Shown here: positions 58,314 through 64,000 of the stretch, piece after piece
Layout of the letters: every line of letters starts with the position of its first letter
Numbering within the stretch: the first letter of the stretch is position 1
Source of the DNA: Ardenticatena maritima
Lineage (GTDB): Bacteria; Chloroflexota; Anaerolineae; Ardenticatenales; Ardenticatenaceae
Assembly (NCBI RefSeq): GCF_001306175.1
Contig: NZ_LGKN01000009.1
Location: forward strand, 186,001 to 250,000
DNA: 64,000 bases
Direction: 5' to 3'
The notes under the pieces: generated by a model
Seen by the model: the letters and a program-made list of their open reading frames with translations, nothing else
Databases searched by the model: none
Told to the model about the DNA's origin: nothing
Made by a program: the position numbers and the translations under genes

Positions 58314-59258
58314 ATGCGATATCTGCGATTAGCATGGGTGAGTAGCCTTCTCACGCTCTTGCTGCTTGCTTGTGGGCAAGAAACGTACCCGGTGGTGCGG
58401 CTCAGTGAAGCCACCGTCGAAGACGTGGTCGGTGCAGAAAACCCACAACCGCGTATGCCGCTGCGCGTGGCTATCGCCGCCGTTCTTTCGCCGGAAGCCA
58501 CGTTTGAAACGTATCGCCCCCTGCTCGCCTACCTTTCCCAAGAACTCGATCGCCCCGTCGAACTGCTGCAACGCGGCACCTACGCCGAAGTGAACGAATT
58601 GGTGCGCACCGGGCAAGCCGACGTGGCGTTTGTGTGCGGCGGCGGCTACGTTGAAGGTGAACGCCTCGGCTACATGACCGTCCTGGCGGTGCCACAAGTG
58701 AACGCGCGCACCACGTACCAGGCAGTCATCATTGCCCGTGCAGACGCGCCCTATCAATCACTTGAAGACTTGCGCGGCACACGCTTCGCCTTCACAGACC
58801 CCCTCTCCAACAGCGGGCGCTTATACGTGCAGTATCGTCTCTGGGAAATGGGCGAAACCCCCGAAACGTTCTTCAAGCATGTGATTTTCACTTACGCACA
58901 CGACAACTCGGTTCATGCGGTTGCCGAACACATTGTTGACGCCGCAAGCGTGGACTCGATCGTGCTGGAAACCATGTATGCGCAAGACCCCACCTTGCGC
59001 CAGCAGATTCGTGAAATTGAACGCTCGCCTAACTTTGGCATTCCCCCTGTGGTCGTCCACCCCAACCTGGACCCCGCCTTGCGGGACGCGTTGGAACAGG
59101 TGTTGCTCAACATGCACAACACGCCCGCAGGGCGCGCCGCCCTGCGCGCCATTGGCATTGAACGGTTTGTTCATGCACCGCCAAATTTGTATGATGATAT
59201 TCGCCATATGGCGGCAACAGTACGCGGATGGACAGAAGCCAGAGGAAACGAACAATGA
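58314..59258 (+). CDS. PhnD-like periplasmic binding lipoprotein (candidate sensor component)
   Basis: A 314-residue solute-binding protein with a lipobox at LLLLAC (Cys20). Residues about 48-300 fit the phosphate/phosphonate-binding PhnD fold: LRVAIAAVLSPEATFETYRPLLAYLSQELDRPVELLQRGTYAEV, then ADVAFVCGGGY (the only other Cys, Cys108), LRGTRFAFTDPLSNSGRLYVQYRLWE and VDAASVDSIVLETM. No permease or ATPase gene accompanies it. Instead the histidine-kinase gene starts inside its stop codon (ATGA), as in the AioX-AioS-AioR and related modules where such proteins are sensors. Ligand unknown: phosphite, arsenite or sulfur oxyanions are candidates (inference). Confidence 0.85.
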   Translation: MRYLRLAWVSSLLTLLLLACGQETYPVVRLSEATVEDVVGAENPQPRMPLRVAIAAVLSPEATFETYRPLLAYLSQELDRPVELLQRGTYAEVNELVRTGQADVAFVCGGGYVEGERLGYMTVLAVPQVNARTTYQAVIIARADAPYQSLEDLRGTRFAFTDPLSNSGRLYVQYRLWEMGETPETFFKHVIFTYAHDNSVHAVAEHIVDAASVDSIVLETMYAQDPTLRQQIREIERSPNFGIPPVVVHPNLDPALRDALEQVLLNMHNTPAGRAALRAIGIERFVHAPPNLYDDIRHMAATVRGWTEARGNEQ

Positions 59259-61240
59259 AATGGCGACGCTCGCCACGTGAATGGGTTCACTTCATTTGGA
59301 GCAGATTGCAAGCCCTGCCAATTCGCACCAAACTGGCCGGCATGGTCTGGCTGAGCACGTGTCTTTTTATCTTTGTCTTGACGGTCGAAATTCGCGCTAT
59401 GACCGCCGCCAACCTCGAACGTGATTTGGAAGAACGCGGGATTGCCATTGCCCGCGCTCTGGCGGAAGACGCAACCGACTTACTCCTCACCCAAAACACC
59501 TTTGGCTTACACCAAAAAATCCGCACGACGCTTGAAACCAACCCCGACGTACGTTACGTCTTCATCCAGGACGCCAATGGGTTAGTACAAGCACACTCCT
59601 TCCCCAATCGTGTGCCGCCAAGTTTGCTTACGGTAAACCACCTGGAAGCCGGCCTTCCTCAACAGGTGCTTACCGTACAAAGTGAAGAAGGGCTGATAAC
59701 CGACATCGCCGTTCCCATCCTCAACGGCGAACTGGGAACGGTGCGGCTGGGGATGAGCCACAACCGTATCCAACAGGAACTGGCACGTACAACCAACATC
59801 GTCGTTCTGCTCTCGTTGAGCGGCTTGGCCGCCGCATCGGTTGCCGTGTACGTCCTTGCCAGTATTTTGCTGACGCCTATTTCAAGGTTGGTTGACGCCA
59901 CCGAACGCATGCGCGCCGGCGACCTCGACCAGCAAGTGCCTGTCCACTTTCCCGATGAAATCGGGCGCCTCACGACGGCGTTCAACCGCATGGCGCGCCA
60001 ACTTGCCGCCGCCCGCCGCGATTTGGAACAACGCAACCGCCACCTGCAAGCCCTGAATGAATTTTCGCACTTGCTTTCCGCCCAAACCACGCTGGACGCC
60101 TTGCTGGAAACCGCCACACGCGAAGCCGCCCGCCTTCTGGGGTGCGAAAGCGCCTGGATTGTGCTGGCGCCTTCCGAAGACGCCCAAACCGCCCCCGGCA
60201 TCCAGGCTGCGTGGGGTGTAAGCGACGCGTTCCGTGCGCATGAAATGCGCCCCCACGCCCAGCAGTGCCATTGTTTCGACGTACTCAGCGGGAAGGCGGA
60301 TTGGCGGCATCCCGTCATGCGCCATGATTGCCCCCGCCTGCACCGCGCATTCGAGCAACGCACCAGCGAAATTGCGTTCGACCGTCATCTGAGCGTCCCC
60401 CTCGTCTCTCACGACCACCCGCTGGGCTTGCTCAACCTGGCGCTGCGCCCCACACAAACCTTTTCCGACGAACAGATTGCCCTTGCCGAAGCGCTTGGGC
60501 GTCAAATCGGCATTGCGCTGGACGCCGAATTACAGCGCCAGCGCGCCCTGCGCGAACTCGCCGAACGCGAAGCCCTGCGCGCACAACTTCTGGAACGTGT
60601 CCTTGCCGCCCAGGAAGAGGAACGCCGCCGCATCGCCCGCGAATTGCACGACGAAGCAGGGCAAGCGCTCACATCGCTCATGGTAGGGTTTGGCATCTTG
60701 CAACAAAACCTGGACGACCCCTACGCCGTTGCCGCCAACCTGGCAGACTTGAAACTCACGACCAACCGCATTCTCGAAAACCTTCACCGCCTGGCTATTG
60801 ACCTGCGCCCCGCCAGTCTCGACCATGTGGGGCTGGTCGCCGCCTTGCGGCAATACGCCGACGTTTGCCGCCGCCAAAGCAACATCAGCATCGACTTTGA
60901 AGCCGTGGGGCTGGATGAACACCGGCGCTTTTCGCCCGAAGTCGAAACCGCTATCTATCGCATTGTTCAAGAAGCGCTGACAAACGCCATGCGGCACGCC
61001 CAAGCCACACATGTGGACATCATCCTCGAATGCCGCAATGGGCATCTCATTGCCATTGTAGAAGACGACGGCATTGGGTTCGACCCCACCACGATCAACA
61101 CGCAAGAACGCCTGGGCGTGTTTGGCATGCGCGAACGCGCCGCCATGCTCGGCGGAACATTGACCATTGAAAGCCAGCCGGGCATAGGCACAACCATCCA
61201 TGTGGAGGTTCCTTATGAACATTCGTATTCTCATCGCTGA
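59255..61240 (+). CDS. Sensor histidine kinase (NarX/DesK-type HisKA_3) with HAMP and GAF domains
   Basis: About 661 residues. Two membrane helices (residues about 28-50 and 175-205) bracket a periplasmic domain of about 120 residues; HAMP (about 205-260), GAF (about 285-430) and a dimerisation domain with phospho-acceptor His465 in RRRIARELHDEAGQALTS follow; the ATPase domain has NAMRHAQATHVD, DDGIGFDP and FGMRERAAMLGGTL. The GAF contains CxC and, 18 residues later, another Cys (CHCF...RHDC), a possible metal or Fe-S site. It overlaps the binding protein by 4 bp and the response regulator by 26 bp. It probably receives a signal from the PhnD-like lipoprotein and phosphorylates the NarL-type regulator. 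Confidence 0.88.
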   Translation: MKWRRSPREWVHFIWSRLQALPIRTKLAGMVWLSTCLFIFVLTVEIRAMTAANLERDLEERGIAIARALAEDATDLLLTQNTFGLHQKIRTTLETNPDVRYVFIQDANGLVQAHSFPNRVPPSLLTVNHLEAGLPQQVLTVQSEEGLITDIAVPILNGELGTVRLGMSHNRIQQELARTTNIVVLLSLSGLAAASVAVYVLASILLTPISRLVDATERMRAGDLDQQVPVHFPDEIGRLTTAFNRMARQLAAARRDLEQRNRHLQALNEFSHLLSAQTTLDALLETATREAARLLGCESAWIVLAPSEDAQTAPGIQAAWGVSDAFRAHEMRPHAQQCHCFDVLSGKADWRHPVMRHDCPRLHRAFEQRTSEIAFDRHLSVPLVSHDHPLGLLNLALRPTQTFSDEQIALAEALGRQIGIALDAELQRQRALRELAEREALRAQLLERVLAAQEEERRRIARELHDEAGQALTSLMVGFGILQQNLDDPYAVAANLADLKLTTNRILENLHRLAIDLRPASLDHVGLVAALRQYADVCRRQSNISIDFEAVGLDEHRRFSPEVETAIYRIVQEALTNAMRHAQATHVDIILECRNGHLIAIVEDDGIGFDPTTINTQERLGVFGMRERAAMLGGTLTIESQPGIGTTIHVEVPYEHSYSHR

Positions 61241-61868
61241 CGACCACGGCGTACTCCGCGCCGGCTTACGCGCCCTGCTGAATGCTGAAGAGGAAATCGA
61301 AGTGGTGGGTGAAGCCGCCGACGGTGTCGAAGCCGTGCGCCTGGTGGAAACACTGAAACCCGACATCGTCCTCATGGACATCAGCATGCCCGGCATGAAC
61401 GGGCTGGAAGCCACACGCCTCATTCGGGAACGCGCTCCCGATACGCGCGTGCTCATTCTCAGCGTGCATGAAGATGAAACCTTGCTGCAAGAAGCCATTC
61501 GCGCCGGTGCAGCGGGCTACATCATCAAGCGCGCGGTGGAACTGGAATTGTTGAGCGCCATCCGCGCCGTCTGGCGTGGCGACATTTATGTTCACCCCTC
61601 GCTCACGGGCGCACTGTTGCGCGGGCTCAACCTTGGCGCATCCACATCCCCCCACGCGACCGATTCATCCATTGAGCGCTTGACCCCGCGCGAAAAAGAA
61701 GTCCTGCGGCTGATTGCTCTGGGCTACACCAACCAGCAAATTGCCGATGAATTGCACATCAGCGTGCGCACCGTCGAAACGCATCGCGCGAACATCACCA
61801 GCAAACTCGGCATGCGCAGCCGCGCCCGTCTGGTACGCTATGCCCGCGAGCATGGGCTGATTGATTAG
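61215..61868 (+). CDS. NarL/FixJ-type response regulator
   Basis: A 217-residue two-component regulator. The receiver domain has the acidic pair in LIADDHG, phospho-acceptor Asp55 in IVLMDISMPG and the conserved Lys in GYIIKRAVE. The C-terminal LuxR-type helix-turn-helix reads LTPREKEVLRLIALGYTNQQIADELHISVRTVETHRANITSKLG. The start follows GTGGAGGTTCCTT inside the kinase gene end. It most likely controls the Fe-S/NrfD operon that begins 200 bp downstream and has direct repeats in its leader. Confidence 0.92.
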   Translation: MNIRILIADDHGVLRAGLRALLNAEEEIEVVGEAADGVEAVRLVETLKPDIVLMDISMPGMNGLEATRLIRERAPDTRVLILSVHEDETLLQEAIRAGAAGYIIKRAVELELLSAIRAVWRGDIYVHPSLTGALLRGLNLGASTSPHATDSSIERLTPREKEVLRLIALGYTNQQIADELHISVRTVETHRANITSKLGMRSRARLVRYAREHGLID

Positions 61869-61932
61869 CCCCCCTTCACCGCCCACCTCTTCCATCAGGT
61901 ACCCCTCCACCTGTCCACCTGGCTAGGGGAAA

Positions 61933-61972
61933 AATCCGCACTTTTCCACGACCACAATCCGCATTTTTCACG
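61933..61972. repeat. Direct repeats upstream of the Fe-S/NrfD operon (candidate regulator sites)
   Basis: AATCCGCA followed by CTTTTCCACG (61933-61950) recurs as AATCCGCA plus TTTTTCACG (61956-61972), a 23-bp period, about two helical turns. They lie upstream of a weak -10 candidate TACACT (61997-62002) that has no -35 box, at roughly -37 to -76. This is typical of activator-dependent promoters. Confidence 0.5.
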
Positions 61973-61974
61973 CT

Positions 61975-61996
61975 ACCGCCGGCCGGCGGTTTTTTC
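61975..61996 (+). terminator. Palindrome with T tract after the response regulator
   Basis: A perfect 16-bp palindrome ACCGCCGGCCGGCGGT (61975-61990) runs directly into TTTTTC. It may terminate the sensor operon; it also overlaps the predicted promoter spacer of the next operon, so a regulatory role is possible. Confidence 0.55.
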
Positions 61997-62067
61997 TACA
62001 CTGGACTCTGCACGAAGACCCGCCGGCATTCCAAGCAACGGGGTATGCAAAGCAGGAGGGAAACCTG

Positions 62068-63030
62068 ATGAGTGACCAAATGATACCCATCAACACCATT
62101 GACGTACAACCCGAAGACGTTTCGCCGGCGCCAGAAAACGAAGCGTTGGACGAAGAACGCCGCCGTTTTCTGGCCAAATTTTCCAGCGCCGTCTTTGCCG
62201 GGTTGATGGCGCCCGCCATCTTCAGCAAGGATTTTCCGAAATCGGCGGAAGTCCCGGTTCCGACCGAAACACCCCAAAAGTTCCCCACCAAGCCGTTGCG
62301 CAAACCCAACACCGACTATCTCGACCCCGAAGCCGGCGTCATTGACCGCATGTTGGTTGACTTGCGCCGTGCGCTTGAAAAACGCGAACGGGGCGAAAAA
62401 GTGCGCTTCGGCATGGCGGTGGACTTGCAAAAATGCACCGGCTGCCGCGCCTGTACAGTCGCGTGCAAAGCCGAAAACCAAACACCGCCGGAAGTCTCCT
62501 ACAACGTCGTGCTCGAACAGGAAGTGGGGCAATTCCCCAATGTGCGCCGTGTCTTCATGTACAAGCCCTGCTTCCACTGTGAAAACCCGCCTTGCACGCC
62601 GGTTTGCCCGGTCGCGGCAACGTGGAAACGCGAAGAAGACGGCATCGTCGTCATTGACTACGATAAGTGCATCGGTTGCCGCTACTGCCTGACAGCCTGC
62701 CCCTATGGCGCACGCTTCATTGACCTGGGCAAAACCTACACCGACCCGCTCCAACCGTATGAACAAATGGCCTCGCCTGAGTACGGCGAAAACCGTGTGC
62801 GCGCAACCGGCAGTTCGCCTGTGGGCAACGCCCGCAAGTGCCACTTCTGCTTGCACCGCATCTATCAAGGCATGTTGCCGGCCTGCGCCGAAACCTGCAT
62901 CGGGCGCGCCATTCACTTCGGCGACCTGGACGATCCCGAAAGCCTGGTGTCGGAACTCATCGCCAAACGTCCGTACATTCGCCTGAAAGAAGAATTGGGC
63001 ACCGAACCAAATGTCTACTACTTGCTGTGA
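62068..63030 (+). CDS. Tat-signal four-cluster ferredoxin subunit (NrfC/TtrB/PsrB-like)
   Basis: A 320-residue electron-transfer protein. A 45-residue extension precedes a Tat-type signal ([20 protein letters not shown]), indicating export by the Tat pathway. The body holds four [4Fe-4S] cluster motifs: [43 protein letters not shown] and [20 protein letters not shown]. This matches NrfC, TtrB, PsrB and ArxB, which relay electrons between an NrfD membrane subunit and a molybdoenzyme or cytochrome. The start follows AGGAGGGAAACCTG. NrfD follows 28 bp downstream. The catalytic partner must lie beyond the window. Confidence 0.9.
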
Positions 63031-63058: not shown

Positions 63059-64000
63059 ATGGAAGGCCAACTCCGCTATCAAAGCCCGAACCGCTGGCTC
63101 ACCCGCCTGGGCTGGGCAATCCTCTTCATCGTGACGGTCGTCGGTCTGGCGGCGGTCGTCATCCGTACCGTCGAAGGCCTGGGCGTTACCAACCTGAACT
63201 ACATCGTCCCCTGGGGGCTCTGGGTTGCGTTCTACATTTACTTCATCGGGCTCTCAGCCGGGTCGTTCCTGCTCAGTACCGCCATCTACGTTTTCGGCTA
63301 CAAGAAACTGGAACCTATCGGGCGGCTTGCCCTCTTTTCGGCGCTCATCGCCCTGATTGCCGGTCTCTTCTTCGTGTTGATTGACCTGGGGCACATGGAG
63401 CGCTTCTGGACCGTCTTTGTGAACCGCAACTGGTGGTCGGTTCTGGAAATCGAAATTCACTTCTACGTCCTCTACATCATCGTCATTCTGACCGAACTCT
63501 GGCTGCTCATGCGCCAGGATTTGATTCGCTGTGCGCAAAATGAAAGCGGCTGGCGCGCCACCATCTGCGGCTGGCTGACCCTGGGAAGCCGCGACCTTTC
63601 CGAAGCCTCTGCTCAGCGTGACCGCCGCTGGATGAAGATTTTGGGCATCTTCGGTATTCCGATTGCGATTGGCGTCCACGGTGGTACAGGGGCGCTCTTC
63701 GCCGTGGTGAAAGCCCGCCCCATGTGGTACGGGCCGCTCTTCCCCATCGTCTTCATCATCTCGGCGCTGGCATCCGGCGCGGCGTTGCTCACCTTCTTGC
63801 TGGCCTTCTTTGTGGGTCGCGCCCTTGATAAAGCCCAGCGCGATGACCTGGTGCTCACGTTGGGGAAAATCACGGCGGGCTTGCTCATTTTCGACTTGCT
63901 GCTCATCTGGTCCGAATTCTCGGTCGGCCTGTATGGCAACATCCCCGAAGACGTGGAAGTCCTGCGGCTGATTATGTTCGGTCCTTTCTGGTGGGTCTTC
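63059..64000 (+). CDS. NrfD/PsrC-family membrane quinone-interacting subunit (partial, runs off the window)
   Basis: The open frame continues to the last base (314 codons seen, no stop). It is rich in membrane helices: RLGWAILFIVTVVGLAAVVIR, YIVPWGLWVAFYIYFIGLSAGSFLLSTAIYV, LALFSALIALIAGLFFVLIDLGHMERFW, and several more, including EIEIHFYVLYIIVILTELWLL. The GLSAGSFLLST segment and WG-x-W quinone-site-like sequences mark the NrfD/PsrC/TtrC family, which passes electrons from quinol to periplasmic oxidoreductases. GGGAGG eight nt upstream sets the ATG at 63059. Only 28 bp separate it from the Fe-S subunit, so they form one operon. The C-terminal end is missing. Confidence 0.9.
   Translation, partial: MEGQLRYQSPNRWLTRLGWAILFIVTVVGLAAVVIRTVEGLGVTNLNYIVPWGLWVAFYIYFIGLSAGSFLLSTAIYVFGYKKLEPIGRLALFSALIALIAGLFFVLIDLGHMERFWTVFVNRNWWSVLEIEIHFYVLYIIVILTELWLLMRQDLIRCAQNESGWRATICGWLTLGSRDLSEASAQRDRRWMKILGIFGIPIAIGVHGGTGALFAVVKARPMWYGPLFPIVFIISALASGAALLTFLLAFFVGRALDKAQRDDLVLTLGKITAGLLIFDLLLIWSEFSVGLYGNIPEDVEVLRLIMFGPFWWVF

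Follow-up and report, generated by a model that had tools for sequence, protein, structure and literature searches.

We analysed a 64,000-nucleotide stretch of the Ardenticatena maritima genome (contig NZ_LGKN01000009.1, positions 186,001 to 250,000; hereafter the window), near whose right end a three-gene sensing module, X-S-R, adjoins a respiratory molybdoenzyme operon. The first gene, X (58314-59258, + strand), encodes a protein of 314 aa that is predicted from its sequence to be a PhnD-fold lipoprotein and oxyanion sensor of the ArrX/AioX family. It is followed on the same strand by S (59255-61240), encoding a sensor histidine kinase of 661 aa, and R (61215-61868), encoding a NarL/FixJ-type response regulator of 217 aa. 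X and S overlap by 4 bp and S and R by 26 bp; the ATG of R at 61215 is preceded by GGAGG, and a longer in-frame ATG lies at 61200. Pfam domains detected were Phosphonate-bd in X (225 bits), sCache_3_2, HAMP, GAF, HisKA_3 and HATPase_c in S, and Response_reg and GerE in R. No ATP-binding cassette (ABC) permease, ATPase or other transporter genes were found adjoining X, and the genome (98.6% complete) encodes no other Phosphonate-bd protein. The X locus therefore carries the feature by which XSR modules are recognised, a PhnD-fold protein encoded with a kinase and a regulator and without a transporter. An earlier reading of the DNA from its letters alone (the sequence-only reading) had described the three genes with their overlaps, the PhnD-like fold without a transporter and an architecture like that of AioXSR, and our coordinates and domain matches agreed with it on each count.

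The R-B gap (61869-62067, + strand), where related loci carry ArrR-like operators, contains a terminator-like hairpin at 61975-61990. Beyond it, B (62068-63030, + strand) encodes a four-cluster Fe-S subunit resembling TtrB, ArrB and DsrO, and C (63059-64000, + strand, continuing past the window end to L005:10621) encodes an NrfD-type membrane subunit of 520 aa. A (L005:10627-13773, beyond the window) encodes a molybdoenzyme of the TtrA/SrdA clade with 1048 aa and a twin-arginine translocation (Tat) signal, and a cytochrome c gene (L005:13778-14233) follows directly, giving the order X-S-R-B-C-A-cytochrome c. The sequence-only reading had linked the module to oxyanion respiration and pointed to the genes right of 64 kb as the place to look; the oxyanion-type operon adjoining XSR upheld that link.

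Comparison with proteins of known structure placed X closest to ArrX of Chrysiogenes arsenatis (218 bits), followed by AioX (121 bits) and PhnD (46 bits). Pairwise identity over the stretches available was 44% with ArrX and 33% with AioX, so that AioX, the nearest model chosen in the sequence-only reading, shares the family architecture but ArrX is the closer relative. An AlphaFold2 model of X, built from window and locus sequences only (pLDDT 92.9), had ArrX as its top structural match (Foldseek TMt 0.95; VIA-align Z 35-36, root-mean-square deviation 1.4-1.6 Å). Because the Z scores for AioX (34.7-34.9) and PhnD (32) were close to this, structure alone distinguishes the relatives of X weakly, and sequence and phylogeny are the better guides. 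In the X tree, the window protein lay on the ArrX side and was separated both from AioX/ArxX and from the three unassigned PhnD-like proteins that served as outgroup; the ArrX row is a long branch, and its exact position is unsure. The sequence-only reading had named clustering with true PhnD importers beforehand as an outcome that would count against it; X did not cluster with the PhnD-like proteins in the tree.

Exactly two cysteines are present in X, Cys20 of the lipobox and Cys108 in the motif AFVCGGGY, which had earlier been placed in the likely ligand loop. Alignment confirmed this, since all seven AioX pocket residues (Tyr88, Cys106, Tyr131, Ser161, Ser163, His192 and Asp210) have counterparts in X (Y90, C108, Y135, S165 and S167 of the stretch S165-N166-S167, H196 and D214). 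The pocket is near-invariant across 111 X homologues, whichever enzyme adjoins, except for a Ser/Thr swap at the second serine. Three PhnD-like binding proteins that fall outside the sensor clade (L069, L070 and L071) have the pocket cysteine too, and we rejected it as lone proof of arsenic sensing; these three proteins have neither XSR nor obvious transporter neighbours. By each feature examined X belongs with the AioX/ArrX sensor subfamily, and it is accordingly predicted to bind arsenate or arsenite. ArrX itself binds arsenate with a Kd of 1 µM (PMC5908839).

The enzyme is less easily named. The best NCBIfam model for A was TtrA (NF011567), at 569 bits against a cut-off of 1750 and a score of 2075 for authentic TtrA, and the ArrA model (NF041714) gave 132 bits against a cut-off of 1600. 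ArrA proteins beside related XSR sets, in Firmicutes (L092, 1176 bits) and Chloroflexota (L125 and L132, about 1281-1283 bits), likewise scored below that cut-off. The other molybdopterin-family proteins in the genome were Fdh, NapA, NuoG, one DmsA-like and one PhsA-like protein, with no ArrA among them. Published trees group TtrA in one clade with the selenate reductase SrdA and with an arsenate reductase from an archaeon (PMC7331816, PMC10100899). The molybdenum-ligand cysteine motif in the clade of the window enzyme is HTTICEQSHH, with GRxEHGR upstream; authentic TtrA has HGAYCGLAYR and ArrA has SHSAICAEAEK. A TtrA-like enzyme on a Citrobacter arsenatis plasmid, encoded in an ars cluster (as also on pEL-ars2), has HTNICELSHH, a likeness in sequence that points toward arsenic.

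Module and operon are inherited together. A sister genome from within the genus was collinear on both sides of the locus and lacked the 10.4 kb from 58126 to about 68478, a block made up of X-S-R-B-C-A-cytochrome c and little else. Among 298 genomes of the class Anaerolineae, X was present in 66, A in 69 and both in 59 (Fisher p about 1e-43, which overstates independence because the genomes are related). In the wider set of loci, XSR and BCA adjoin in most contigs long enough to judge. Related XSR sets adjoin ArrA, ArxA-like, PsrA-like or TtrA-like enzymes, including ArrA/ArxA-like enzymes in Methanoperedens, and the enzyme type switches at least 25 times along the X tree. Two Methanoperedens-type contigs (L098 and L104) provide the clearest case: their X, S and R proteins are 86%, 88% and 87% identical and their A proteins only 32%, that of L098 being TtrA-like (51% identical to window A) and that of L104 ArrA/ArxA-like. 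The simplest explanation for an enzyme swap behind a conserved XSR is that both enzymes act on one compound.

Variants of the arrangement were seen elsewhere. In Methanoperedens nitroreducens (L124:6881-13164 and L133), two tandem XSR sets lie between two differing ArrA/ArxA-like operons, and in L124 an ACR3 gene is located upstream. At two loci (L151:1785-4986 and L144:1275-4435) the kinase is missing, and X is followed by a protein of 737-748 aa with HAMP, sigma-54 activator and Fis-type helix-turn-helix domains and then by B-C-A; from its domains, this looks like a binding protein that signals directly to a membrane-bound transcription activator. The GAF domain of long S kinases (about 650 aa) has a conserved CxC-x18-C triad, found here at residues 338, 340 and 359 (domain at window positions 60086-60523, S residues about 278-423), which may act as an additional input for redox state or metal. 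Within the genome, no other GAF domain matched this one at E 0.001.

We then searched for the site proposed for Chrysiogenes ArrR, TCAGGTTTTTCCCTGA (PMC5908839), scoring matches of at least 12 of 16 positions as hits. Of the 79 enzyme genes or operons linked to XSR, 20 had such a match upstream, where dinucleotide shuffles lead one to expect 2.2, and hits fell in 16 of 1300 control tiles (p about 4e-17 against the tiles, most of them coding sequence). Among the upstream matches are TCAGGGAATTCCCTGA (L068, TtrA-like), TCAGGTTTTGCCCTGA (L099, ArrA) and TAGGGTTTTTCCCTAC (L159, TtrA-like). In the nearest relatives of the window locus (L044, L045 and L046), palindromes such as TCCGTAGTTTCTACGGA, resembling TCCGTAG-N3-CTACGGA, replace the ArrR-type site upstream of B, and this pattern suggests an operator shift within the subclade of the window. 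ACR3 genes scoring above the cut-off lie no more than a few kb from X in relatives (L159, L060 and L063), and several TtrA-like loci have ACR3 near X.

Taken together, these results make it probable that the locus is a signalling module of the ArrXSR type and that the enzyme it controls is a non-canonical arsenate reductase. The membrane-anchored lipoprotein X would close its Tyr/Cys/Tyr/Ser/Ser/His/Asp pocket on an oxyanion of arsenic, most probably arsenate, and in its loaded form contact the periplasmic Cache domain of S. The kinase, thus activated, would phosphorylate R, which may use an operator ahead of B to turn on the B-C-A-cytochrome c operon, and A would reduce arsenate. Because the enzyme differs, the module is not ArrXSR-ArrAB. 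Of the ligands listed in the sequence-only reading, an arsenic oxyanion is kept, and thiosulfate, tetrathionate and phosphite now appear less likely than arsenate.

Several observations weigh against this assignment. Neither an ACR3 nor an ArsB exporter was found in the genome, which is unexpected for an arsenate respirer, though arsenite would form outside the membrane, and the one ArsC-like protein scored below the cut-off and is encoded beside pst-like genes. Genes of the ars type lie near X at 16 of 117 loci (some counted in two versions) versus none of 20 controls, a difference not significant alone (one-sided p 0.07), and such proximity was rejected as proof of an arsenic role. The best match to the ArrR site in the window R-B gap was 11 of 16 (TAGGGGAAAAATCCGC, 61924-61939), which is chance level. 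The clade of A contains selenate and tetrathionate reductases too, and the A tree places the Citrobacter ars enzyme with true TtrA (SH-aLRT 99), not with window A, so that the motif they share may be ancestral. Furthermore, the ligand cannot be told from the pocket residues (PMC5908839).

Selenate is the main rival to arsenate, and we consider it unlikely. X would then sense selenate and control a respiratory selenate reductase of the SrdBCA type, as might be expected from the shared B-C-A order, the position of SrdA within the A clade (PMC7331816), the annotation by Leu et al. of TtrA/SrdA-clade enzymes from several Methanoperedens metagenome-assembled genomes as SrdA (PMC7327174), and a genome without arsenite exporters. 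However, ArrX does not bind selenate (PMC5908839), the same XSR serves ArrA/ArxA-like enzymes, and relatives carry ArrR-like operators and nearby ACR3. A second arsenic-based scheme, in which X senses arsenite and the enzyme oxidises arsenite, passing electrons to the cytochrome c whose gene comes after A, is improbable. AioX and ArxX do bind arsenite, AioX through the equivalent cysteine, the cytochrome c gene follows A at other loci as well as here, and the gene for NapA lies at a distance of about 20 kb. Yet X groups with ArrX and not with AioX/ArxX, and the quinone of Chloroflexota is menaquinone, which favours reduction. The TtrA/SrdA clade, moreover, has no listed oxidase member (PMC7331816).

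More doubtful still is control of a true tetrathionate reductase by an analogue of TtrSR that responds to tetrathionate or thiosulfate. The best model for A is indeed TtrA and the gene order is that of ttrBCA, but A scores far below the cut-off of that model, its molybdenum-cysteine motif differs, and neither ArrX nor AioX binds tetrathionate or thiosulfate (PMC5908839). The parallel with TtrS drawn in the sequence-only reading failed in detail, and we rejected a TtrS-like sensor: in authentic TtrS the Cys and His of the pocket are absent and identity to ArrX is 17%, and X scored 24 bits against the TtrS model, whose cut-off is 750. Least probable of all is an importer component recruited to phosphate, phosphite or phosphonate signalling. 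The Pfam fold of X and the weak binding of phosphate by ArrX (PMC5908839) would fit it, whereas the tight co-inheritance of X with a respiratory molybdoenzyme and its grouping with ArrX would not. X as a PhnD importer component was likewise rejected, as the permease and ATPase genes encoded alongside PhnD, PtxB and HtxB importers are missing beside X and X does not group with the PhnD-like proteins.

Surveys of arsenic release depend largely on arrA. Arsenate-dependent growth without ArrA has been described for Pyrobaculum, Citrobacter TSA-1 and Fusibacter, and a TtrA-type enzyme of P. aerophilum is highly expressed with As(V) (PMC9751042). We tentatively suggest, with less assurance than for the window locus itself, that the TtrA/SrdA-clade enzymes under ArrXSR control in Chloroflexota, Methanoperedens, Firmicutes and deltaproteobacterial lineages could be a second, widely distributed family of respiratory arsenate reductases. 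These enzymes currently carry the label of tetrathionate or selenate reductase, and they could explain some of the arsenate respiration that proceeds without ArrA. If the substrate can be read from the sensor, then an arsenate reductase has gone uncounted in about one fifth of the sampled Anaerolineae genomes (the 59 of 298 with both X and A) and in some methane-oxidising archaea. The sensor would also offer a testable substrate assignment for a molybdoenzyme clade in which sequence does not tell the substrate.

Related operons were also found on mobile elements. On conjugative plasmids of Citrobacter and Enterobacter (L079, L188 and L189), a DsrO-NrfD-TtrA-like operon is embedded in ars clusters and may encode a mobile arsenate reductase, and an E. 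coli plasmid has the same operon type beside transposases and without annotated ars genes. A haloarchaeal plasmid (L080) has a B-C-A operon with TorD and an Mrp/NBP35 gene, its A being 43% identical to window A; a bacterio-opsin activator-type gene lies nearby in place of XSR.

Among known systems, TtrSR/TtrBCA shares with the window locus the B-C-A order, the overall enzyme family and a PhnD-like sensor domain, but TtrS has that domain fused to the kinase and without the pocket Cys and His, and the enzyme is 37% identical with a different molybdenum-cysteine motif. The arsenite-sensing AioXSR and ArxXSR systems have the same three-gene layout and an exported X with the pocket cysteine; window X, only 33% identical to AioX, lies on a separate branch, and their regulators are sigma-54 activators, unlike the NarL-type R. 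The Citrobacter arsenatis plasmid enzyme (L079, in an ars operon) resembles window A in B-C-A order, motif and sequence (40% identity), but has no XSR within the 21 kb covered and branches with TtrA. SrdBCA and the Pyrobaculum-type alternative arsenate reductase are alike in the clade of the catalytic subunit, by the literature (PMC7331816), and SrdBCA also in B-C-A order; the papers found describe no XSR sensor linked to either. Against ArrXSR of C. arsenatis, which senses arsenate beside arrAB, the window locus differs in its adjoining enzyme, of the TtrA/SrdA clade and not canonical ArrAB, in an operator not recognisable in its own genome and in the GAF domain of S with its cysteine triad. 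It resembles ArrXSR in an X of 44% identity whose pocket and fold are the same (Z 35-36), in its kinase, in its regulator (ArrR being CitB-like without an AAA+ domain, and R NarL/CitB-like), and in the related operator carried by many relatives of the locus.

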